Part shown: piece after piece, positions 20,465 through 64,000 of the stretch
How the letters are laid out: the number at the start of each line of letters is the position of its first letter
How positions within the stretch are numbered: position 1 is the stretch's first letter
From: Cymbomonas tetramitiformis
Lineage: Eukaryota > Chlorophyta > Pyramimonadophyceae > Pyramimonadales > Pyramimonadaceae
Direction: 5' to 3'
Length of the DNA stretch: 64,000 nucleotides
NCBI GenBank assembly: GCA_001247695.2
Contig: LGRX02035154.1
Coordinates: 1-64,000 of the forward strand
Notes under the pieces: model-generated
The model's database searches: none
Told to the model about the DNA's origin: nothing
Seen by the model: only the letters and a program-made list of their open reading frames with translations
Position numbers and translations under genes: made by a program

Positions 20465-21505
20465 ATGGTGAATAACAAAAGGAAGCGATCAGATGTGCGC
20501 GAACGTGCGAACGAAGATGTTTCCGGAGATTGTGCTGGCGGTGGTTCTACTACCTCAGGTGATATGGTCCGAACCCAGTTTACTCAGATGAGTACGCTGA
20601 GCTCAAGAGAGATCTTAACATCTTTTTTGTTTAGAGGGTTCGTCTCATGCGCGCTCGCATGTTATTTAGTAGTGGAAAGGAACACGGAAGACCCAGAGAA
20701 TAACGAGCCCCTAGACTTTTATTTTCGTGAGAATAACGCGGATAACATATTCTGTATCCGCACTGCATACGAGAGATATGTTCCAATGGGTAGATTGTTG
20801 CACGAAATGGCACACACCGAGTCACCTTGTGACCGGCTTCCTGAAACCTTTTGTGAGGCAGAGGCACTTTTACGCATCACCGGCAATAGGAATAGGGTGT
20901 GGCAATGTGTCTTGACCAAATTTCCTGGGCAAAGAATCACCCTCTCCGATTTGAATAGCGTGTGCCATGACCTTAAAGAGGCAGGGACATCTACGGTAGA
21001 TGCACGTGTTAAAGCTTGTACACCTTGGACGTCCGCTGAGAGTTGCCGGTGGTGGACTCCCATATGGATACTTGATCTTGTTAGGAGTGTTTATGAAGAC
21101 AGAATAGATTTAGATCCCTTCAGCGAGCGAGAGTGTAACCGTGAAAGGGTTAAGGCTAGGACGTATTACTCAGAAAAACGCGACGGTTATGCTAGGCGAA
21201 ATAGGTGGTTTAAAAAGGTATTTGCCAACCCTCCCGGTGGAACCACAGGGGGGAAGAGTAATATGGGAAGGGCTTTGAAGCGTGCGGTCTTGGAGTTTGA
21301 GGAAGGAAACGTGGAGTGTTGCATTCTTTTGCTCAAAGCCTCTGTGGGATACCAGTGGTTTGAATTGGTGTACACACTACCACACGTGTTCCTTCGGGAA
21401 AAACCGTCGTTTTTAAATCCTGAGCGACCGGAAGTGGACTCCCCTACCCTTCATGGGTATATATGTTGTTGTTTATCTTGGAAACAACGTCAGTGGTTTC
21501 ATTAA
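20465..21505 (+). CDS. phage-Dam-like DNA N6-adenine methyltransferase
   Basis: Intact 346-residue ORF. Residues about 195-340 match the Dam family found in phages and in DIRS retrotransposons: CRWWTPIWILDLV, then RIDLDPFSERECNRERVKA, then YYSEKRDGYARRNRWFKKVF, then ANPPGG, a variant of the (D/N)PP(Y/F) catalytic loop. A ILLLKAS strand follows, as in family members. Residues 1-190 are unrecognised; the first 45 are polar and basic, with a KRKR cluster that could be a nuclear signal. It would methylate adenine in DNA using SAM. The loop has Gly where the aromatic residue usually stacks on the base, which may lower activity. I see no RT, RNase H or tyrosine recombinase beside it, so it is either a domesticated gene or a relic of a larger element. 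Confidence 0.7.
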   Translation: MVNNKRKRSDVRERANEDVSGDCAGGGSTTSGDMVRTQFTQMSTLSSREILTSFLFRGFVSCALACYLVVERNTEDPENNEPLDFYFRENNADNIFCIRTAYERYVPMGRLLHEMAHTESPCDRLPETFCEAEALLRITGNRNRVWQCVLTKFPGQRITLSDLNSVCHDLKEAGTSTVDARVKACTPWTSAESCRWWTPIWILDLVRSVYEDRIDLDPFSERECNRERVKARTYYSEKRDGYARRNRWFKKVFANPPGGTTGGKSNMGRALKRAVLEFEEGNVECCILLLKASVGYQWFELVYTLPHVFLREKPSFLNPERPEVDSPTLHGYICCCLSWKQRQWFH

Positions 21506-22719: not shown

Positions 22720-23596
22720 CCTACCTCACCACCTCCGCAGGTGCGGGCTCTCCCGCCGCGGGGCTCCCCGTGATTGGGGGCGGAGCCAACACCACCTCCG
22801 CCGGTGCGGGCTATCCCGCCGCGGGACCCTTTGCGATTGCGGCATCCTCCACGACCACCTCCGCAGGTGCGGGCTCTCCCGCCGCGGGGCTCCCCGTGAT
22901 TGGGGGCGGAGCCAACACCACCTCCCCCGGTGCGGGCTCTCCCGCCGCGAGAACCTCCGTGCTCGTGGGGGCGGGAGCGTCCGCGGGTTGCTCCGCTCCC
23001 CACGGCGCTTCCGCATGCCCCTCACCAACCTCCCGGGGTGTGGCCGCTTCAAGGGGCGGTGGCCATTGCTTGAGCGCGCCTTCCAGCAGCAGGGCGCCTA
23101 CTTTTGAGAGCTTCGCAGCGTCCTTCTCCGCTTGCGAGGCTGGGTAGACCGTGCGCTTCGCCATGCACTCCGGTCTACCACAGTTGTTCACCTCCTCGAT
23201 CCCTTTGCCTAGAAGGCAGACGTTGTGGTAGCTCGCACCGCAGTGCGAGCACTTGTTTACTCCACGTCCGTCGTCCTTCTCGCAGAGGAAGCAGCAGTCT
23301 TCAGCTGCTGGCGGTGGGGGTGAGGGCGGAGGAGGCATGTTTCCACCTAATTCATACCACACCAAAACCAAAACCATTACACACGCAGTGTTTCGGGCAT
23401 TATCCATACGCATGACTATATAGGTTCTCCCAACATGTGATTCTAAAGGGTGCTCACCATCTTCATGCCCTGTATAGCATCTATCGTATGCTATTATCAG
23501 GGCATGATCGAAAGCATTCCAATCTAATGCTTTCGATACGGCGGTCTTCGGACCTGGCAGCTCCCCCAGTCGTCTCGTCGCCTCCATGTCGTGCAT
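22720..23596 (-). CDS. Cys-rich zinc-finger protein with Pro/Ala repeat tail
   Basis: The recognisable part starts at MPPPPSPPPPAAED (about 23338), just after an acceptor-like GAATTAG. A Cys/His cluster follows: CCFLCEKDDGRGVNKCSHCG, then SYHNVCLLG and NNCGRPEC, with PHD/RING-like spacing. The C terminus is a 20-residue tandem repeat (GEPAPAEVVLAPPPITGSPA type) encoded by 60-bp units at 22730-22960. A TAG at 22809-22811 replaces the GAG found at the same place in the other units, so the present frame ends one unit early; open sequence continues to about 22725. It may be one gene with the Cys-rich ORF at 23618-23986, joined through an intron. No function can be assigned beyond probable zinc binding. 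Confidence 0.5.
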
Positions 23597-34680: not shown

Positions 34681-35850
34681 GTACTGACAAACACAGCAAA
34701 CCTCTCTTTGGACCTCACTTCGGAGGACATGCGATCGATCAGGATAACTTCCTGAAATCACTTCAAGTTGAGGAGCTGAGGGTCAGAAGACTTGTTATCT
34801 CATCATTGAATGCAAAGATCCAGGAGTTCCCACATCTTCAAACAAACATTCCTCCCGCTCTCCAGAAGCTGCGAGAAAAGGGCGTTGTCAACAGAGGAAT
34901 CATGCATTCGATATATTAATGACATGTAGTAAATAGAGAACATTTTAGTTTCATTGGCTACGCTGCCAACACCTCGAATCTCACCTGAGTATATTCTTAA
35001 TAAGGTAACCTGAATTTCCAATTGCTAGCCTTGACAATAGAATATGCCAATTGGAGATCGCTTTGAATGTTTTCAAATGTCCCAACTATTTATCCTGCTT
35101 GTTATATATCGTTAATGTGCCATTAAAGTTGAAATTACAACTAAGTTGTTCCTTTATTCAGTACTTTGATTTAACTAATAACAATACATTCCAATTATGC
35201 TTCTGAATTATATTCAACCTTTCCTTGAATATTAACAATATCAATATGGTATTATGGTTGGTCAGACTAGCAATATCTTGATTCTGTCAATATCCCAATT
35301 AATATGCTTGTGTCCATTTCATTTTAATTACCAATGCTAACCGCTTTTCTAAACTTTTATTATTCAATACTTGTCAACATTCCTTATTGCAACACACGCG
35401 TTCAATCACACTTTGAGTTGTGTTCAATAACAGGATAACAACAATGCAAGATTTAGGATTGGGGAATTTGGATTTTTCCCCACCTGTACGTTCACGTACC
35501 CCCTATAAATTTCCCCTATGATAGGGGTCACTAACTCAAGCCGTTACGTTTTGGAATACCCGTTCATTGGAAATAGGCTACAGTTTGGAAATGGGCTACA
35601 GTAGAGATAAAATTGACATTTGTGTCGCGATATCGTGCGATATCGCGCCAGGGTAAATTTTCATCATTTAAAGCACTTCCAGGCGGTGTGAAAACATATT
35701 ACAAGTTCCTTGAGCAGCCTTACAAAACGATTTTCAGACTCGCCGGAAGTTTGGTTTTAAGGTATAAAGGGTATTTCTTGGAGATAAAAGTGCATATTTT
35801 TTGCACGAGAACGAGCTGCTGGGTCTGTGAAGCATATATATTCTCGAGAT
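34681..35850. other. AT-rich spacer, no gene seen
   Basis: Strongly AT-rich with no conserved ORF. Small palindromes occur near 35632-35647 (CGATATCGTGCGATATCG). Confidence 0.4.
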
Positions 35851-38426
35851 ATGGTGTCAACACGTCGTGAAAGGTGTGCCTCACTCGCCAGCCTCGGTTT
35901 TAGCTTGTCTTGGAGCGTATTACATCTCGCACACTTTTTCAGTGTGAAACCTAATTTCTACCCATTTGTAATCATCAGGGCTGGACTGTTACGACCGCCC
36001 GTAACTCCCAAGTTGAACAAGGCTATGGAAGCGGCTAAAGCCTTTGTGACTGGGCAATATTCTGGGTGCAAGGCTGCTGCTGATGCCTTCGGAATTGACA
36101 ACCCGTCGCATGTTCGCTATTACGTAAATAAGTGGGCTGAAACTGATGTGGAAGCGGCATTACTTCATGTGGAGTGTGAGCGCGCGGACGCGTTTTTGAG
36201 AGGGGACACTCCTATGGAAGACCCACATACCCCGGCAGTGACGGTTGCCGCTGCTGCATCTTTGGCTTCCATGAGCCAAGATGTTACCTCGACGGGAAAT
36301 TTAAATTGCATGTCCAATAACGTGCCATCGATGATAGATGCTAGTGGGACTTCCCCACTGTTACCTCTAGACCTTTCGACTCACTTCCAGCACGATAGTT
36401 TGGACAGCATTGCGCACGCTGCGTATGTCCTTGAGGCCACATCTTCGCCCAACCCATCGCGAAAAGATTATCCCCCTGTTTTATCTCCTGGAAAGACACC
36501 ACGTGAAACGTATTGCGCAGGGTTTAAGTGGGCAGCACAGGCAGTGAAGGACGAGCTGCTTTCCAGTCGTATGGCGTCCAAGCGTGTATTGGAAGTGTAT
36601 GGAATCTCCATACACTTCACTACGATCTCAAAAGGGGCTCGACAAATAGAGATCGCATCACCGGAAAAAGCGGGTAGGAGGACTTTCATCCCTAGGGAAC
36701 ATGAGACTCGCTTATGGGAGTTCATGTGCGCGCTTCGTGCTATGAAGCTGGCAGTATACAAGAGCACGGTTTGCACGTATGCAAACCAGATGATAGAAGG
36801 CACGGACATTGCGGACAAGTTTGAATATGGCGTAGTAGATAACAATTGGTACTACGGTTTTTTAGATCGGTTCGAGATGCGGACTGGCAACCAGCGTCCA
36901 CTTGAGCTGACACGAGGGAAGTGGTGCACCGCTGACAATATGCACAAGCACTACGAGGTGGTAGCTGATGCATTGGTGGAAGCCAAACTAGCCGTGCCTA
37001 ATCCGGACTTTGACGAGTCGGACCCTGACTCGTGCAAGATTCACATCACGAAACCTAAACGTGTATTGAGTTTCGACGAAACCCGCCTCACCATGGACTG
37101 CACGGAGTCATCGAAGTCGAAGCAGGAGCGCATCGTGAAACCTGAGAAGGAGGATGATGGGGAGGTTTTGGTGAATAAGGGTGGTGGTGTCGCTAGTGGT
37201 GTTGGCGGTAGTACGGCGGATGGGGACAGTTTAGCACCGTTATTCATATTCGGTGGGGCGGACTCATACAAGGCGGCGTGGACACAGGGTGCTCCGAGAT
37301 CGACCGTGATACAGGAGGACACGGGTCGTGGGATGCCTGCCACTTTCTATGCGAATAAGAAAGGTGGAATGACTCATGCACTTGCATTGCAATATTTCAA
37401 AAACAATATTGCAACTATGTATCCGGACATGACTCCCGAGAACCCTATAGCCGTGATCTGTGACGGCCACGGCTCGCATCTATCATGTCAACTGTTGACA
37501 TTCTGCAGGGAGGTGGGGATAATCATTTTGTTGAGGCCTCCACACACGACTAACATATCACAAGGCGAGGACGTCGTGAACTTTGGCAAGTTCAAACCCC
37601 TGTTTCGCACGGCGAAGGCACGCAGGCTGCTGGAGAAGTTGAACACCGGCAGCAAGACACTGTTTCTGGATATGGGCGACTTGATGCCTTGCACGGCAGC
37701 AGCATGGGAGGCTGCTTTTTCCAAAAAGGAGAACACAAAAGCTTGGGCAGCAATAGGGGTTAACCCCTTCACCCGGTGTGTGTACTGGGAGCTGCGGAGG
37801 AAGGAAGAGGCAGCACAAGCGCGGGTGAAGAAGGTGGGGGGTGTGAACCTGGAGGTGCTGACTTTCGGCTTCAAAGGGAAGGAGCCGAGGAACAAGGCTG
37901 GGGAGGAAGAGGAGGAGGAAGGGGAGGGAGAGGGGGAGGGAGAGGGGGAGGGGCGGGCGGTACTCGAGGTGTGAGAGTGACCAGTGCACTCTTTTGGGAC
38001 AAGGGTCCCATGACCTCCGATGCTAGCTTCGCCGCAGTGGAGACAATGGCGAAGCAGAAGGAGCAGTCTGCTGCGGAGACACTCGTTAGGAAGAGGGAGG
38101 CGGCAGAGAAGGAGCTGCAGAGGTCCGTGAAATATGCCAAGTTGGCGGAGGCAGCTCAGCAGAAGTTGGCACGGGCAGGACAGGATGTGAAGCAGGCCAA
38201 GCTGTTGAAGGAGGAGCTGGTAGGAGTGCTTAGGGGCATGGGAGAAACCCCTGCCAGCAGTGCACGGAAGGAAGTGCTGGAAGGTGCACTGCAGGAACTG
38301 TTGGGACAACCCACACCAGCAGCAACAGCGGAGGAGGAGGCAGCAGCAGCAACCGGTGCAGCAGCTGCGGAACCAGCAGCAGTTACAACAACTGCAATAG
38401 CTGCAACAAGTAGTGTGGCTAACTAA
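35851..38426 (+). pseudogene. pogo/Tc1-type DDE transposase, C-terminal frameshift
   Basis: Cut-and-paste transposase of the pogo (CENP-B-like) group. A helix-turn-helix sits at the N terminus (MEAAKAFVTGQYSGCKAAAD, from 36025). The DDE_1 core has RVLSFDETRL, VICDGHGSHL and TTNISQGEDVVNFGKFK, giving three plausible acidic residues. MVSTRRE at 35851 is a likely start: splicing AAAG|GTGTGC (about 35873) to ATCAG|GGCTGG (about 35979) would drop a hydrophobic stretch and stay in frame, though the intron is also open. The frame ends at 37974 in a GAGGGAGAGGGG run. The alternative frame (about 37970-38426) gives a Lys/Glu/Ala coiled coil that looks like the true C terminus, so a slip in the run is likely. 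TIRs were not found. Confidence 0.65.
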
Positions 38427-47642: not shown

Positions 47643-50629
47643 ATGAATCATGTGCACGCAAAGACCGCTTCGAGGGGGGGGCTTAAATACGGAGTGTGCG
47701 AAACTTGCGGAGCCCACGCAGGTGAGATGAGGTGTCGCGAATGCGGAATCACCTATATGTTATATGTATGCCAAGTTCCAGCCGGAAAGACCATGTGAAT
47801 CGAAAGTTATTCACGGTAGCAGAAAACTAATTTGCATCCATTTCGGTTGCAGGACTTACTTTTACCTCCTTCATTGAATGATGTGTTCAATTTCTCATGT
47901 CGCTGTAAGAGGTTATGTTCGTCGAATATTTCTAAACAAGAGGTGAAGGATCTTCGCTCTGAATTCTGGACCTTGAACGCGGCATCTCCCAAAGAGAAAA
48001 GTCTTCAAGGAATGCAGAGACAATGGATCATATCTACCCTTAAAAAGTCGTCCGACTTTTCAGATCAAGATGCACCAGTTCTCAAATTTGCCATTGGTTC
48101 TCAGCGTGTGTGTCGCAAGTTTTATGAGAAATGTTTGTCGATATCTCATGGACGGCTGACGAAGCTAATAAAGGATTTATTTGCCGGAAGAAAACATAAC
48201 AGGTAAACCAATTTACAGTTTTCCTATAGGCTCCCATTCTTTGCATCAGATTCATTATAATAATATACATTTTCCCCTTTTCAGGCTGCACGGAAACAGC
48301 AAACAAGTGCAAGTACAGGGCTTGTCATATATTCCAAAAAACTCTCTAAAGGTTTCAGCAGTGAAAACCTTTCAGCAGAAGATTGCCAAAGAGCAAGGTC
48401 AACATCAACCGGACAAGAAAGAAACACATCTGCCTCAAGGAATGACAAAGCTTGACGTCTACGAAAAGTTTATCGAAGAGATTCCAGCCTTTGGTTCTGA
48501 GAGATTCAAGGTCAGCGAGCCATACTGGTATACGATCTGGAGAAAACACTTCAAGTAGCTTAAGTGTCCGAAGATTTGCAAGTTCTCGGAGTGCAAGATC
48601 TGCTCGACCGCAAAGCTTCACAAGCAAGTCGCTCCGGCCGAAATGAGAGGTATGTTAGAAAGAAAACCCAATCTTGTTCGTAAGAGGTATGTTCAGAAAG
48701 AAAACACGTGACCACTTACCTGAATGTGTTTGCGTTGCAGTACGAATCGAAAATCTTTTGCAAGCTCATCGACTGGATGCAAGGGCTGAACGGGAGAAGT
48801 ACTACAAACACATTCAGAAATCCAGCGCAGCAAAAGGCAACGCGAAGTGGTGGAAATATACTACCATGATCATCGATGGCATGACACAACGTACCACACA
48901 ATTGCCTCACTTTCGTCGAATGCCCTCTTGGGTCAAAGACAATAAGGCATTGATAGATACCCACTGCATGGGGATCCTAATCGAAGGCATCGGTCGTTTT
49001 ATGGAATTCAATTTCAGTCATAACTACTCTGACAACTCGAACTATCTTGCGAACGTCATACAGCGGGCAGTAGCACGAGTTCATGAGCATCGACGATCGG
49101 GTGGGCATCCGTTACCGGAAGTATTGTATCTACAATTGGACAATGTAAGCAGCAATAAGAGCCACTTCTTGATTGCTTATTGTGCCATGCTGGTCAAACG
49201 TGGGGTATTCCGCAAGGTGAAGATCAACTATCTGATCGTGGGACATACACACGAAAATATCGATCAGATGTTTTCAAGGTTTTCTGTGGCTTTGAGGAGG
49301 CTGAACGTTTGGGACATCGAGCATTTGATGGAGGTGGCTAGGAACTGCTTTAAGGATGGAGTAGTTCCGGAATGTCAACTGATCGATGAGGTGCACGATG
49401 TCAAGGGCTGGATGCATGGATGCTATAACGAAGTGCGCGATGTCAGCTTCCAACATGCATTCAAGATTTTTTCTGGCCCCACCGGCGACGTGTTAGTGCA
49501 GGCGAAACGTTATTCATTCGATCCAGTCTGGCTTCCAAAGGAAGGTGGGGTGAAGGTATTTAAGAGCAGCCTGCCCGAGGGCTCACCATGCTTTGTCGAG
49601 CCTAAATCCATTAACGAATTGAGCGCACGGAAACAAGCGAAGCAGCTTGCGACTTCCAGGAAGTCTACGAGCAATCCATTGAAAGAGATCGAGGATCTTG
49701 TCATTCAATGCCAGAGGAATCTTTGCTTATGCATTCGAGGTAAGCACTGCACTGCTAGCGATTACGATTTGATTTGTCATATTTCAAATGTAAGTGGCCT
49801 TCTTAGTTTCTCGGGTTATGTTTTGCAGATGTCGCAACCACCGAGGAGGCGGAGCGGCTTCAATTTCTAGCCAAGCGCGCAAATACTTTTCTTGAAGGGT
49901 ATGTTCAAATGCAACGTGACATTGCGGCAGGAACGTTCGAACTGAAAGAGAAGACAACGTGGGTGCTGCACGAGGCTCCCTTTGAGGTTACTGGACCCAT
50001 GATGCCTGTTCCTTCGGGTGCTTTGAGCGCGAACGGGCGAGATGCGGAAGTACTGATTGTCGATGAGCCAATGGCTGATACGAATGATATTGAACGTGGA
50101 TACACGGATGCGCAACTGGCTGATTACGTGCAGGGCCTTCGGGACTCCGTAGCGGTTCACGTGCGCCCAGTACCTCGTCCTATCTACATCGGGGCACAAA
50201 AAAATACCATTGGAAGACGAGCTCGAGATCATCTTGCGCAATACATTCTGGGAGAAACTGACGACCCGGACTACGATGTGAGCTACAGCAAGATGAAGAA
50301 AGGTAGCATGGCTGTGTTGATTGCTCCCGAATCCGAGAAGACTGCCCGGACGGAATACCCGTTTCGTATCGCTCTGGGAAGGAGCCGAGGATGGTCGAGA
50401 TATCTGTACCTTTGTGAAGTACAAGAGCAGCTGCTAAATGAGAAAGGTGAGAAATGTTTATTGATGTGATTGCGCGCGCAACCTGCTTTTAACATCACAA
50501 CGTTTTATGTCAATCTAATATCTCTTTTATCTTCTTTCTGGTGCAGGAGAAAAATGTTTGCGGTGGTTGACTTGTGGTACATTTAAGCTCACGAGCGCCT
50601 CCGCTGTCGCCGGCATCGTCTTCAGATGA
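47643..50629 (+). CDS. DUF7869-type transposon protein, six exons, one in-frame TAG
   Basis: Exons 47643-47765, 47853-48202, 48285-48649, 48741-49739, 49829-50446 and 50547-50629 join with GT-AG borders and matching phases to 846 codons including the stop. The N terminus has a small Cys cluster (CETCGAHAGEMRCREC). Exon 3 ends in CPKICKFSECKICSTAKLHK, another likely zinc site. Exon 4 carries LYLQLDNVSSNKSHF, then VGHTHENIDQMFSRFSVALR, the signature of DUF7869, thought to be an RNase-H-like transposase core. One TAG at 48556-48558 (codon 249) breaks an otherwise coherent reading. It is the only large gene in the 8.1-kb element and the best candidate for its transposase. The last exon is the least certain: a neighbouring frame (50574-50807) gives a Ser/Pro-rich acidic tail. 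Confidence 0.7.
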
Positions 50630-58183: not shown

Positions 58184-58765
58184 TCAGCAAACGGTGCTAT
58201 TGCAGGCTTGTCGTACCCAAAACCGATGGTCACGGGAGTCTTCTGCAACTTTCACTGAGAACACTGCAACTTTGCTACCATCTTTGTTTTCAAGCACCTT
58301 GACCTTTATTGCAGTAGTACTGCCTAGAATTAAACTTTCTCTTGCTTGAAATGAAGGGTGTTTATAGATACGCGTTGGGAATACGCGTTGGGATTGAGCA
58401 TTTTGGGCACAGCCAAGGAGTTGCTCGGGTGACCCATAGGACTCAACGACTATAGCACAGCCAAGGAGTTGCTCAGGTGACCCATAGGACTCAACGACTA
58501 TAGCACAGCCAAGGAGTTGCTCAGGTGACCCATAGGACTCAACGACTATAGCACAGCCAAGGAGTTGCTCAGGTGACCCATAGGACTCAACGACTATAGC
58601 ACAGCCAAGGAGTTGCTCAGGTGACCCATAGGACTCAACGACTATAGCACATGGCGTTTTGAATGGAATGGATGAAATGTCAGCGGTGTAGTGCATGCAT
58701 GTCGGCTGCGAATAAAGAAAATATAATGCAGTGATAATGCTAAACGACTTCGGGAATTTGGTCAA
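58184..58765 (-). CDS. ORF with five 16-residue repeats, unknown
   Basis: A 193-residue minus-strand ORF ending 17 bp past the lipase stop, so the two are convergent. It has a hydrophobic N-terminal stretch (FSIITALYFLYSQPT), five exact CAIVVESYGSPEQLLG repeats and a tail without a known domain (AIKVKVLENKDGSKVAVFSV). The 48-bp repeat keeps frame. Without the repeats it would be a small secreted protein; it could also be chance openness over a minisatellite. Confidence 0.35.
   Translation of the reverse strand: MTKFPKSFSIITALYFLYSQPTCMHYTADISSIPFKTPCAIVVESYGSPEQLLGCAIVVESYGSPEQLLGCAIVVESYGSPEQLLGCAIVVESYGSPEQLLGCAIVVESYGSPEQLLGCAQNAQSQRVFPTRIYKHPSFQARESLILGSTTAIKVKVLENKDGSKVAVFSVKVAEDSRDHRFWVRQACNSTVC
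58408..58647. repeat. 48-bp tandem repeat, five units
   Basis: CACAGCCAAGGAGTTGCTC starts at 58408, 58456, 58504, 58552 and 58600. Units are almost identical (one G/A change in the first), which points to recent expansion. Confidence 0.97.
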
Positions 58766-60291: not shown

Positions 60292-61213
60292 TGTCGCGAA
60301 CTTATGCACAACGTGTCCACACAAAGCACGACCCTCTAGCCCTACTACTAAACAGTCTTACTTATTGTCAGCGCTCCTACAACACCAGCTCGGTACTGTA
60401 TATATTGTCTTTTATACTCGTACAGTTGACTTTCTACTGCACCTGCACAAATTTTCAAAATTTTTGATATCTTCTTCTCTTATACACTTATGCAAGCTCT
60501 TTTTCTCGACATGAAAAAGACTGTTAATTACAGTTCTGACACTATCGCACACGAGCAAGTTCCACAAAAGTATATCTTTACAAGCAGAAGAATGCTATAT
60601 CTTACAAATCATATCATAACACTGCTGTTTTCGCGGTCTAAGCGAGTCCTTGTTATTTTCGGAATCACTGTTACGAAGGCAAAACAAAAATGAGCGTCTG
60701 CCTCACACTTCCACGCCGCCCTATATCTCTTCTCGCTGTCTCCGGAACACTGTCACCAACTGTCTCTCCGCTGTCACAACTTGTCAGGCTACAGTCACCA
60801 ACTGTCTTGACTAGCTCGTAACCTGTACTGCGCTAGTTACAAGGTGTAACACCCATCCGTACTTCCGTACCATATCACTGCTATAACCGCTCGCGCGTAT
60901 CGTACTGCGCGTGTTATATGTTCGTCACAGAGACTACTGTCCCAAGTGTCACAACCCGGCTAAGGTACACGACAAGCCGCGGTTTGTGACAGCTGTCGCG
61001 AACTTATGCACAACGTGTCCACACAAAGCACGACCCTCTAGCCCTACTACTAAACAGTCTTACTTATTGTCAGCGCTCCTACAACACCAGCTCGGTACTG
61101 TATATATTGTCTTTTATACTCGTACAGTTGACTTCCTACTGCACCTGCACAAATTTTTAAAATTTTTGATATCTTCTTCTCTTATACACTTATGCAAGCT
61201 CTTTTTCTCGACA
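60292..61213 (-). mobile_element. 3' LTR region of the gypsy element, with internal 220-bp duplication
   Basis: Two copies of a 220-bp sequence at 60292-60511 and 60994-61213 differ at about two bases. Each starts TGTCG and ends CGACA. The second abuts a purine tract of the downstream-ending polyprotein, as a 3' LTR should. Either the LTR is 922 bp with its ends duplicated, or a 220-bp LTR pair brackets 482 bp (a TRIM-like unit). The 482-bp middle is related to the 540-bp LTR at 32.8-33.4 kb. Confidence 0.6.
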
Positions 61214-61224
61214 TCCCCCATCTG
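61214..61224 (-). other. polypurine tract
   Basis: Minus strand CAGATGGGGGA directly before the LTR start TGTCG: the expected plus-strand primer of an LTR retrotransposon. Confidence 0.55.
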
Positions 61225-61248: not shown

Positions 61249-64000
61249 TTAAACAAGAGCTTGCTCAGCATCTTCTGTCGTAGCACCATCCAGCGCGAAC
61301 TTGCCCATGCTGAAGGTAAACATACCCACTCCAGAAGCTTCCCCTCCTCGCAGCATTCTAGCCCGCGTCAAGGGATTCCGAAACACCACGACCCACATGC
61401 ATCTTCTACCAATAGGTCCATGCTCTAAGTGTCCAATCACATGTAAGCGCCCAGCGTGACACAACTTACGAAAGTACTGTGCCCTGCTCTCTGTCATATC
61501 TGTCATGTAGTGCGATGGCACATGAATACAAGCCACCACTCGGCTAGCCAGCCCTGCCAATGGCAACGCAATATCCAACACTGCGAACCAGGGTGAGGTC
61601 ACCACTGCGTCACACACCCCATACTTCTCCTTCCAGGCACGATAGTTGCCTGGCTGCAAGGCGTTAAGGGCCTCGTGCCATTTCAGCTGTGGGTTCCAAT
61701 CGTTATTCATAAACTTCAGGTGAGGCCATTCCAGTGACATAACTTTGCCAATGACACCTGTGCCAGCCCATGGGTCCCAGACCTGTGTGATCTTTTCCCA
61801 AGTCACCTCGTGCGCCAGGCGCCTGACCTCCTGGGGAACTGTCATCACCAGCTCCAAGCCCCAGTTTAGTTGACTGGCAATTTTCACCTGGGCTCTGCTC
61901 AACTGCGTAACATCCCCCCTCTTCTGCACCTCCTCTGGGCTCATGGCCTGCACCGTAGCCATCCTGCGAAGGTTTCTTGCGCGAGTGTGCTGCTCTGCAC
62001 ACTTTCTGCTCAAGATGGTGCGATGGCCCTCATGCCAGAATCCTGGCATCACGTCTGTAATCACTCTGCTGAGCTCCTCCTGGTTCCCCCAGGCTACTCT
62101 GTCAGGGAGATCCCCCATGCTCCCTTCTTTCCTGAGCATCTGTCGCGACGTGAGTGCCTGCCATGGGTCTTCACGCCCCAGTTTCACTGCACGATGTGGA
62201 CCCACGTCTGCAGGCAACAACACCACATCTGAGCCCAACTTCTCTCTCAGCTGTAGCTTCACGGCAGCCATCTTCTCCACGATCGACGCGCTCACCTCAG
62301 CAGCAGCTGCCACCACCGCGCCACCCAAGCATTTGGGACATTGCCACTCTCCTTCAGGTACTCCATCCAGCGCTGGCTCCAGACACCACTTGTGATAGCC
62401 ACGATTACAGGTGTCACACAGCAACATCGCTGCCTCCCCATCTGCTCTCATGCACCTCTCACACGCGAGGTGCTTGCTGGGGATGGCTGCACTGCAGTCA
62501 TACTGGTCTTTAACCTGCAGGTGACACGGTGCAATGTTCTGCACTGTGCTCTTCTCCCGCAGCTTCGTGCTGTCCTCCAACACCACCACCCCATCTCTCT
62601 GCACCTTAACTATCTTTAAGATGACTGGCTTGGTGGCCACCTCCATGCCAGAGCGTGGCTGCTGCCGTATGTATACAAAATCGCCCGCCTTGAACTGATG
62701 CGGCTTCGGCTCGTAGCTGCCACTCCTCCGGTGCTCATACCGCAAGGTGTCGCGGTGTTGCGCGATCTCCAGGTTGCACCCTGCGTGCACCATGAGCTTC
62801 TTCACGATGGCTGCTCGCTGCAGCAAGTCCTCAGCCAGTGTCCTCTCCTCCTGCTTCTCAAAGTCCAACTCGGGTCGGGTGCGAAGGTCTGGTGGCACCG
62901 TGGCTTCCTGAGCGAACAACAGGGTGAATGGCGCCACTCCAGTCGACTGCTGTTTAGCTGCATTGTAGCTGAGCACTAGTGACCAAAGCATCTCGTCCCA
63001 CTCGAAGTCCAGGCCCTTGTCGAGGGCCATCTTCTTAAAGCAAAACTTGAGAGTGCGCACCACCCGCTCAGTCAAGCCGTTGCTCTCTGGGGAACTCGGC
63101 GATGTCACTCTCCGGTCAATGAGACACTGCCTGCATAGTGCGGCGAACTCGCCCTCAAACTCCGTACCCCCATCCACGAGGCATTCTGCCGGCGCCCCAA
63201 ACACGGATAGCACGTGATTGCGAAACGCACTGGCGATGGTGGCAGCCTCCTTGTCAGGAATTGGAACGCACACGACGAACCGCGTATAGTGCTCGATCAT
63301 GACCAAGACGCGTTGGTTCCTAGCCTTCGTGATGCGCTTCGTGGGCCAGGCTAAGTCCAAAGACCAGCGGTACATGAAGGACTTGATTTCCAGCGGCGTG
63401 AGCATCGCCTCCTCCCGTGCATAGTGGGTCTTCACCCTCTGACAAGTCTGACACTGAGTGACCACTGCTCGTACATCCTGTTTCATGCCCACCCAGTAAT
63501 GGCGTTGCCACAACAAGTTAAGCGTCCGCCTGATGCCCCAATGGCCAGTCCTCTCATGGTGCTCACGCACCAGCTGAATCCGGTCACAGGGCTTGGGCAC
63601 CAGAAGCTCCTTGCCACTGACGGTGACCATGTATAACTCGCCCATGAGCTCGTCCCAACGGTGGCGTGCTGCTCTCTTCCTCACTCTGTGGTACTCCTCC
63701 TTGGGCACCTCCACTCTTCCTCCTGCCTTTATCCACGCGAGGCACAGCTCGTCCTCGTGTATGTCAGGGTGCTTCTCTCGAAGTGACTCCTGGTGGGTTA
63801 CGCTGGCCAGCATGGCGACCATTCTCGTAGTGTCAGACAGCCTAGGCAGCCTCATCTCTTTCTCCTTCGCCACTGGTGCCCATTCTGGGGCTGAGCTTGT
63901 CCCTGCTGGCTTGACCCCAGGTCTTGAAAAGGCCTGGCGATGGCGCGCCTCATAGCCCGCGAGCTTCATGGAGGCAAGCTTCCACTGTCTGCGTCGTGGG
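61249..64000 (-). CDS. Ty3/gypsy polyprotein C-terminal part: integrase-PHD-methyltransferase
   Basis: The open frame continues past the window edge; numbering here is from the Met at 63969 (906 residues). Integrase: zinc site HHERTGHWGIRRTL with CQTCQRVK (137-179), then catalytic Asp205 (SLDLAW), Asp266 (LVDGGTE) and Glu301 (GLTERVV), with a chromatin-type beta domain at 425-485. A complete C4HC3 PHD finger spans 503-547 (CERCMRADG, LLCDTCNRGYHKWCL, EWQCPKC). Residues about 720-870 resemble a SAM-dependent methyltransferase: WDPWAGTGVIGKV as motif I (731-743) and VVTSPWFAVLDIALPLAG where an SPPW-type catalytic loop belongs, followed by a VVACIHVPSHY strand. The last fusion is unusual; its activity is inference. 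Protease, RT and RNase H should lie beyond 64000. No stop or frameshift interrupts the visible part, so the element is probably young. Confidence 0.8.
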   Translation of the reverse strand, partial: PRRRQWKLASMKLAGYEARHRQAFSRPGVKPAGTSSAPEWAPVAKEKEMRLPRLSDTTRMVAMLASVTHQESLREKHPDIHEDELCLAWIKAGGRVEVPKEEYHRVRKRAARHRWDELMGELYMVTVSGKELLVPKPCDRIQLVREHHERTGHWGIRRTLNLLWQRHYWVGMKQDVRAVVTQCQTCQRVKTHYAREEAMLTPLEIKSFMYRWSLDLAWPTKRITKARNQRVLVMIEHYTRFVVCVPIPDKEAATIASAFRNHVLSVFGAPAECLVDGGTEFEGEFAALCRQCLIDRRVTSPSSPESNGLTERVVRTLKFCFKKMALDKGLDFEWDEMLWSLVLSYNAAKQQSTGVAPFTLLFAQEATVPPDLRTRPELDFEKQEERTLAEDLLQRAAIVKKLMVHAGCNLEIAQHRDTLRYEHRRSGSYEPKPHQFKAGDFVYIRQQPRSGMEVATKPVILKIVKVQRDGVVVLEDSTKLREKSTVQNIAPCHLQVKDQYDCSAAIPSKHLACERCMRADGEAAMLLCDTCNRGYHKWCLEPALDGVPEGEWQCPKCLGGAVVAAAAEVSASIVEKMAAVKLQLREKLGSDVVLLPADVGPHRAVKLGREDPWQALTSRQMLRKEGSMGDLPDRVAWGNQEELSRVITDVMPGFWHEGHRTILSRKCAEQHTRARNLRRMATVQAMSPEEVQKRGDVTQLSRAQVKIASQLNWGLELVMTVPQEVRRLAHEVTWEKITQVWDPWAGTGVIGKVMSLEWPHLKFMNNDWNPQLKWHEALNALQPGNYRAWKEKYGVCDAVVTSPWFAVLDIALPLAGLASRVVACIHVPSHYMTDMTESRAQYFRKLCHAGRLHVIGHLEHGPIGRRCMWVVVFRNPLTRARMLRGGEASGVGMFTFSMGKFALDGATTEDAEQALV

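Follow-up and report, generated by a model that had tools for sequence, protein, structure and literature searches.

As a rule retroelements are themselves targeted by DNA methylation, and elements that carry one methyltransferase of their own have already been reported. KnitGypsy-Dnmt3 of Klebsormidium nitens has a Gypsy-type pol with a Dnmt3-like domain together with DIRS-like repeats, and SymbioDIRS-Dnmt3, for which an A-coding-B-A-B layout is given, and SymbioLINE-Dnmt are likewise retrotransposons with a cytosine methyltransferase (de Mendoza et al. 2018, PMC5890265). DIRS elements with a Dam-like adenine methyltransferase are cited in the same article, and green algae are stated to be among the organisms in which DAM and DCM are encoded by Ty3/Gypsy or DIRS elements (Morozov et al. 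2019, PMC6338049), so that the presence of a methyltransferase in a Gypsy element of an alga is by itself nothing new. Here we describe, in a stretch of 64,000 nucleotides of Cymbomonas tetramitiformis (contig LGRX02035154.1, positions 1 to 64,000; hereafter the window), the 3' part of a Gypsy-type retroelement pol in which the integrase is followed by a PHD finger and a predicted amino-type methyltransferase, and whose relatives carry in addition a Dnmt3-like C5 methyltransferase.

Compared by description, this element resembles KnitGypsy-Dnmt3 in the Dnmt3-like domain of a Gypsy pol (here in the polyproteins of its relatives) and possibly in its repeats, which at the right end in the window read B-A-B, but differs in that the main text of PMC5890265 contains the term PHD 0 times and that the sections compared mention no second methyltransferase in KnitGypsy-Dnmt3. 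SymbioDIRS-Dnmt3 and SymbioLINE-Dnmt use tyrosine-recombinase or LINE machinery and are described in the same sections with neither a PHD finger nor an amino-type methyltransferase, whereas a DDE integrase is found here. The DIRS elements with Dam-like enzymes share the presence of an amino-type methyltransferase in a retroelement, but theirs belongs to the Dam family and is combined with a tyrosine recombinase. In the main text of PMC6338049 a PHD finger is mentioned 0 times, and the passages compared present none that combines the two methyltransferase kinds in one element. Chromoviruses are similar in having a chromatin-reader module right behind the integrase; in the present element, however, this module is a PHD finger and not a chromodomain, and a methyltransferase follows it. 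No description of a Gypsy element with a PHD finger and an amino-type methyltransferase, or with both methyltransferase kinds, turned up in searches of the open-licence PMC literature (subscription papers and Repbase lay outside this scope), nor is one given in the available text of a review (PMC9033089). A long-read study of Cymbomonas from 2023 mentions chromoviral elements, and the words 'methyltransferase', 'methylation' and 'PHD' are absent from its main text (PMC10675990). Cymbomonas scaffolds at over 10,000x coverage with homology to RNase H and cytosine methyltransferase were reported earlier (Burns et al. 2015, PMC5741210) and probably represent the present element family. Set against these papers, the family, in which a PHD finger and up to two methyltransferases flank a DDE integrase, looks like a new form of an already known type of element.

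The polyprotein is encoded by a single open reading frame (ORF) on the minus strand (61249-63999) of 916 amino acids, or 906 when counted from the first ATG at 63969. The frame is still open on its 5' side at 63999, so that the N-terminal side of the polyprotein falls outside the window. Its best relatives are gene models of C. tetramitiformis, a prasinophyte, and with one of them (P0001) it shares 68.6% identity in a 916-column alignment. The features of the frame, with residues quoted in the 916-residue numbering, are the following:

61249..63999, minus strand: 3' part of the Gypsy-type pol polyprotein, 916 amino acids, open at the window edge
63427..63585, minus strand: integrase H2C2 zinc-binding domain, residues 139-191 (Pfam PF17921 Integrase_H2C2, 1.4e-16)
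63058..63369, minus strand: DDE integrase core, residues 211-304 by Pfam (PF00665 rve, 1.4e-7), with D215, D276 and E311
62329..62463, minus strand: C4HC3 PHD finger, residues 513-557 (Pfam PF00628, 1.1e-9), without the Trp of methyl-lysine cages
61345..62112, minus strand: predicted amino-type class I S-adenosylmethionine (SAM) methyltransferase domain, residues 630-885 (AlphaFold, VIA-align, hhalign)
61756..61782, minus strand: motif I, VWDPWAGTG, the SAM-binding loop, residues 740-748 (DPWAGTG 742-748)
61687..61707, minus strand: NNDWNPQ, with the acidic residue after strand 2, residues 765-771 (alignment and model)
61585..61605, minus strand: motif IV, VVTSPWF, interpreted as an altered SPPF, residues 799-805 (TSPWF 801-805)

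The original prediction, made from the letters of the sequence alone, had read a zinc site, a DDE integrase, a C4HC3 PHD finger and the DPWAGTG and TSPWF motifs of a methyltransferase in one frame, and all of these were located by Pfam and residue positions. Its assignment of the integrase to the Gypsy type agrees with the Pfam matches, although the rve score of 32.2 bits stays 0.4 bits below the Pfam cut-off of 32.6, with the match of this part to Ty3 and PFV (foamy-virus) integrase in a sequence search of PDB, and with the catalytic triad D215, D276 and E311, which was assigned by eye. The frame thus carries the Ty3/Gypsy hallmark of an H2C2 zinc site and a DDE integrase; reverse transcriptase and RNase H, whose region is outside the window here, are annotated in relatives such as P0069, P0073 and the Cymbomonas protein P0021. 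It is not a DIRS element, as a DDE integrase stands where a tyrosine recombinase would be expected, and it does not qualify as a chromovirus, since the Pfam search of the frame returned no chromodomain row (PF00385) up to E 10 and a PHD finger is found instead. The frame is very probably the 3' part of a Ty3/Gypsy-type pol, and the identity of its parts is assigned with the same high confidence.

The extent of the family was assessed by a search seeded with residues 330-1574 of P0020, in which 8000 candidates were scored at a threshold of E 1e-10. This yielded 146 proteins at E 1e-10 or better, the best 120 of which were inspected; Haematococcus lacustris, Pleodorina starrii, Volvox reticuliferus and the code Chrzof1 (taken as Chromochloris) appear among the matches listed. 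The scored set comprised 127 proteins, namely the window frame, 8 from a first search and 118 new ones, with relatives named only 'gene...-biopygen...' counted as Cymbomonas by virtue of high identity. The name by itself is no proof of origin, as P0162, which does not group near Cymbomonas in the tree, bears one of this style too. As the seed contains both methyltransferase domains, the shares of proteins with each of them, given below, are seed-dependent.

From its sequence and its structural model, the C-terminal domain is predicted to belong to the class I methyltransferases of amino type, which act on N6 of adenine or N4 of cytosine. None of the Pfam, NCBIfam and PHROG models reached its cut-off on residues 560-916, which means that the original methyltransferase call rested on motifs. 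The AlphaFold model of residues 630-890 (predicted local distance difference test score 83.6, predicted template modelling score 0.85) is a confident Rossmann methyltransferase fold with motif I (DPFxGxG-like) ahead of motif IV, where a fold had been anticipated at residues 720-870, and VIA-align aligned it to N6-adenine DNA methyltransferases. The domain could be aligned with eleven relatives (Cymbomonas, Volvox africanus and metagenome records), and the resulting family profile matched a phage DNA methyltransferase in hhalign (97.8%, E 1.1e-12) in a stretch that takes in motifs I and IV and the motif X-like position, as against E 0.33 for an unrelated Dam-like ORF. Thus, of the profile search proposed with the original prediction, the part addressed to curated families stayed empty at cut-off, while the amino-type rather than C5 character of the domain was upheld by the model and the phage match. 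Foldseek ranked generic methyltransferases at the top for either model and by itself lends no support to a DNA enzyme. The phage DNA methyltransferases of PHROG 799 (e.g., gp046 of Listeria phage LMSP-25) agree with the domain in the order of their elements, from a TPxE stretch through motif I and the ND acid to NPPF/SPPF, but as a stand-alone protein of 189 amino acids, whereas the window domain is fused into an integrase polyprotein. With alignment A1, 43 matches were obtained among 8000 scored candidates and no stand-alone eukaryotic relative was seen clearly outside the element family; in IMG/VR the amino-methyltransferase alignment gave 30 stretches fitting the pattern and 0 relatives. 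PGA_cap (PF09587) appeared on the window domain at E 0.015-0.17, about 12 to 15 bits below cut-off, and was judged a chance match.

The domain recurs in other copies: 75 of the 126 other proteins match it, always behind the PHD finger where the PHD pattern was detected, yet 51 of the 127 are without it. Neither of the two outcomes named in the original prediction as refuting it, a missing methyltransferase fold and absence of the domain from other copies, was borne out. The remainder have both motifs (32), motif I only (4), motif IV only (7), neither (23) or a partial domain (10). In most of the 51 the domain is truly missing, as 45 of them extend beyond the PHD pattern; at least one, P0132, ends too early for a decision. 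P0035 is 93% identical across 98% of window residues 560-916. Among Cymbomonas-like copies, 26 of 32 have DPWAGTG as motif I, and in 14 of the 16 that extend over motif IV this motif ends in SPWF; the SPPF form is confined, in the scored set, to P0074, P0082, P0092 and P0093. When the absence of the domain is placed on a tree built from the integrase-PHD region of 124 of the 127 proteins, 18 changes are required, and well-supported branches force at least 8 of these, which indicates that the amino-type domain was gained or lost many times, with the C5 domain retained in most members.

The C5 methyltransferase of the relatives is located between RNase H and integrase, a region that in the window copy lies beyond the edge and was for this reason missed in the original prediction. 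Pfam PF00145 is found in P0001, P0011 and P0020, and the C5 profile matched DNMT3A best in PDB (2.9e-10; M.HhaI 2.6e-5). Nine of the 127 proteins, the window frame included, gave no C5 match, 110 have the catalytic Cys and Glu-Asn, and 8 were flagged as dead; two of the latter (P0161 and P0178) are merely truncated at the N-terminus, leaving six dead domains and 110 of 116 intact. In these six, P0027 (V. africanus), P0164 (P. starrii), P0184 (V. reticuliferus), P0173, P0180 and P0186, the slot is retained and the catalytic Cys and Glu-Asn are gone. P0027 has intact amino-methyltransferase motifs despite its dead C5 domain; in the other five this second domain is degenerate or partial. Both sets of motifs are retained together in 23 of the 127 proteins. 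Searches with the C5 alignment returned 14 loci in GTDB and 6 in IMG/VR. Of these 20, 12 matched with E values of 1e-5 or better, and they match the C5 region of P0001/P0020 only, with nothing in the integrase, PHD or amino-methyltransferase parts.

The PHD finger of the original prediction was confirmed by Pfam and by PDB matches to KMT2C, CHD4, Lid, ATXR5 and KDM5A, several of which we take to be of the unmodified-H3K4 type. As a rule, readers of H3K4me3 carry a Trp at the PHD cage position, and readers of unmodified H3K4 do not. Among 117 PHD fingers detected by pattern in the 127 proteins, Trp two residues ahead of the zinc-binding His occurs in 0 and Gly in 111. By this residue check, with no cage Trp before the YH, the finger is a candidate reader of unmodified H3K4. 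In 2 of 12 aligned members the C-terminal piece also gave a weak match of Tudor-like type (PTM/DIR17, E 0.0023 at best), directly behind the PHD finger as read from the sequences. P0158 and P0172 combine a chromodomain (PF00385) with a PHD finger according to a precomputed Pfam list. The Cymbomonas polyproteins P0001 and P0021 are labelled 'Methyl-CpG-binding domain-containing protein 9' in public records, perhaps on account of the PHD finger.

As an overall explanation we favour, with moderate confidence, a Gypsy pol from a two-methyltransferase, PHD-linked family that may mark its own DNA. Several findings weigh against an active and essential amino-type enzyme: motif IV departs from the consensus [DNS]PP[YFW] by the Trp in TSPWF, 34 of the 127 proteins are without one or both motifs (23 without both, 11 more without one) with the domain still kept, and the motifs were lost repeatedly. 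W204 is nevertheless invariant in near-complete domains (74 of 74), D144 is present in 71 of 76 of them, and the C5 slot is likewise dead in six proteins, including those of V. africanus, V. reticuliferus and P. starrii. All this would suit a pseudo-enzyme whose fold is kept as a DNA- or RNA-holding integrase module after methylation was lost. We consider this rather unlikely for the window domain, as motif I, the ND acid and SPWF are kept there and in most Cymbomonas-like copies covering the motifs, and as the SPW form, present in 24 of the 127 proteins, is scattered over separate tree branches, which suggests a retained variant rather than decay.

The substrate could also be RNA, either the element transcript or the primer tRNA, in the manner in which METTL5 and KsgA act on adenines of rRNA; this is unlikely, given that the best sequence-profile matches are phage DNA methyltransferases and the domain is fused behind an integrase. 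For DNA methylases in retrotransposons, a defence of the host against DNA viruses has been suggested, with an argument drawn from algae in which large DNA viruses abound (Morozov et al. 2019, PMC6338049), but marking of the element's own DNA requires fewer assumptions, and we hold the defensive role to be improbable. A motif look-alike, or a gene-model chimera with the integrase frame running into unrelated sequence, might be suspected from the empty search of residues 560-916 against curated families; the 75 other proteins with the same domain behind the PHD finger and the confident model leave practically no room for it.

The original prediction had suggested an element that reads histone marks and modifies DNA where it inserts; this part is a hypothesis, as are substrate, base, timing and purpose, whereas architecture, fold, family spread and conservation of the motifs are seen in the sequences and the model. 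Under self-marking, the PHD finger would replace the chromodomain of chromoviruses and tether the integration complex to nucleosomes with unmodified H3K4, and such a preference may steer insertions off active promoters. Because reader and writers share a polyprotein with the integrase, they likely travel with the complementary DNA (cDNA) into the nucleus, where the methyltransferases of the integration complex may act on the cDNA of the element itself or on the newly inserted copy. The marks would be 5-methylcytosine (5mC) from the Dnmt3-like enzyme and probably N6-methyladenine (6mA) from the amino-type enzyme, so that a new copy could from its beginning bear marks that resemble those of the host or permit transcription. 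If, in some green algae, 6mA indeed marks active genes, the amino-methyltransferase might keep the copy transcribable and 5mC might give it the look of host DNA. Marking of an element's own DNA has been discussed for DNMT elements (de Mendoza et al. 2018, PMC5890265). We put this mechanism of PHD tethering and self-methylation of new copies forward tentatively, at slightly less than an even chance. Its fullest form, a large green-algal Gypsy family with a complete epigenetic kit (one enzyme writing 5mC, a module reading histones, and a second enzyme, derived from phages, writing 6mA or N4-methylcytosine, 4mC), both marks on new copies, chromatin targeting and DIRS-like split repeats despite a DDE integrase, is possible but doubtful. 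If it holds, SPWF would represent a novel catalytic version of motif IV. With two kinds of methyltransferase and a reader around the integrase, such a family would open to direct test whether retroelements write marks of their own, whether algal 6mA or 4mC stems in part from transposons, and whether a PHD finger can stand in for a chromodomain in the choice of insertion sites.

Behind the stop codon of the frame the window contains the right end of the element:

61215..61222, minus strand: GATGGGGG, a polypurine-tract-like run (inferred from sequence) between the stop codon and the first repeat
60994..61214, minus strand: terminal repeat copy 1 (B1) with TGTCG...CGACA ends, 221 nucleotides, 99.1% identical to copy 2
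60513..60993, minus strand: stretch of 481 nucleotides between the repeats, the 'A' of a possible B-A-B end, whose left-hand partner would fall outside the window
60292..60512, minus strand: terminal repeat copy 2 (B2), 221 nucleotides, 2 differences from copy 1

The run GATGGGGG begins twenty-six bases past the stop codon. With only this end in the window, the comparison with long terminal repeats (LTRs) and with the A-coding-B-A-B layout concerns the two 221-nucleotide repeats 481 nucleotides apart, in the order B-A-B. Two layouts fit this order: an LTR at the 3' end that is followed by another LTR, or one half, B-A-B, of direct repeats of the split type.

Elsewhere in the window, the Dam-like ORF compared above (20465-21505, plus strand) matches N6-adenine methyltransferases of PF05869 at E 2.1e-5, below cut-off, and its hhalign value gave no support for kinship with the polyprotein domain. 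An ORF at 22811-23596 (minus strand) has a PHD-like Cys/His pattern by eye, with no Pfam match at E 0.01. Further ORFs on the plus strand resemble a DDE_1 transposase (35827-37974, 7.9e-14) and DUF7869 (48674-49870, 1.2e-49), and a 48-nucleotide tandem repeat at 58359-58699 corresponds to CAIVVESYGSPEQLLG units in a minus-strand ORF (58184-58765).
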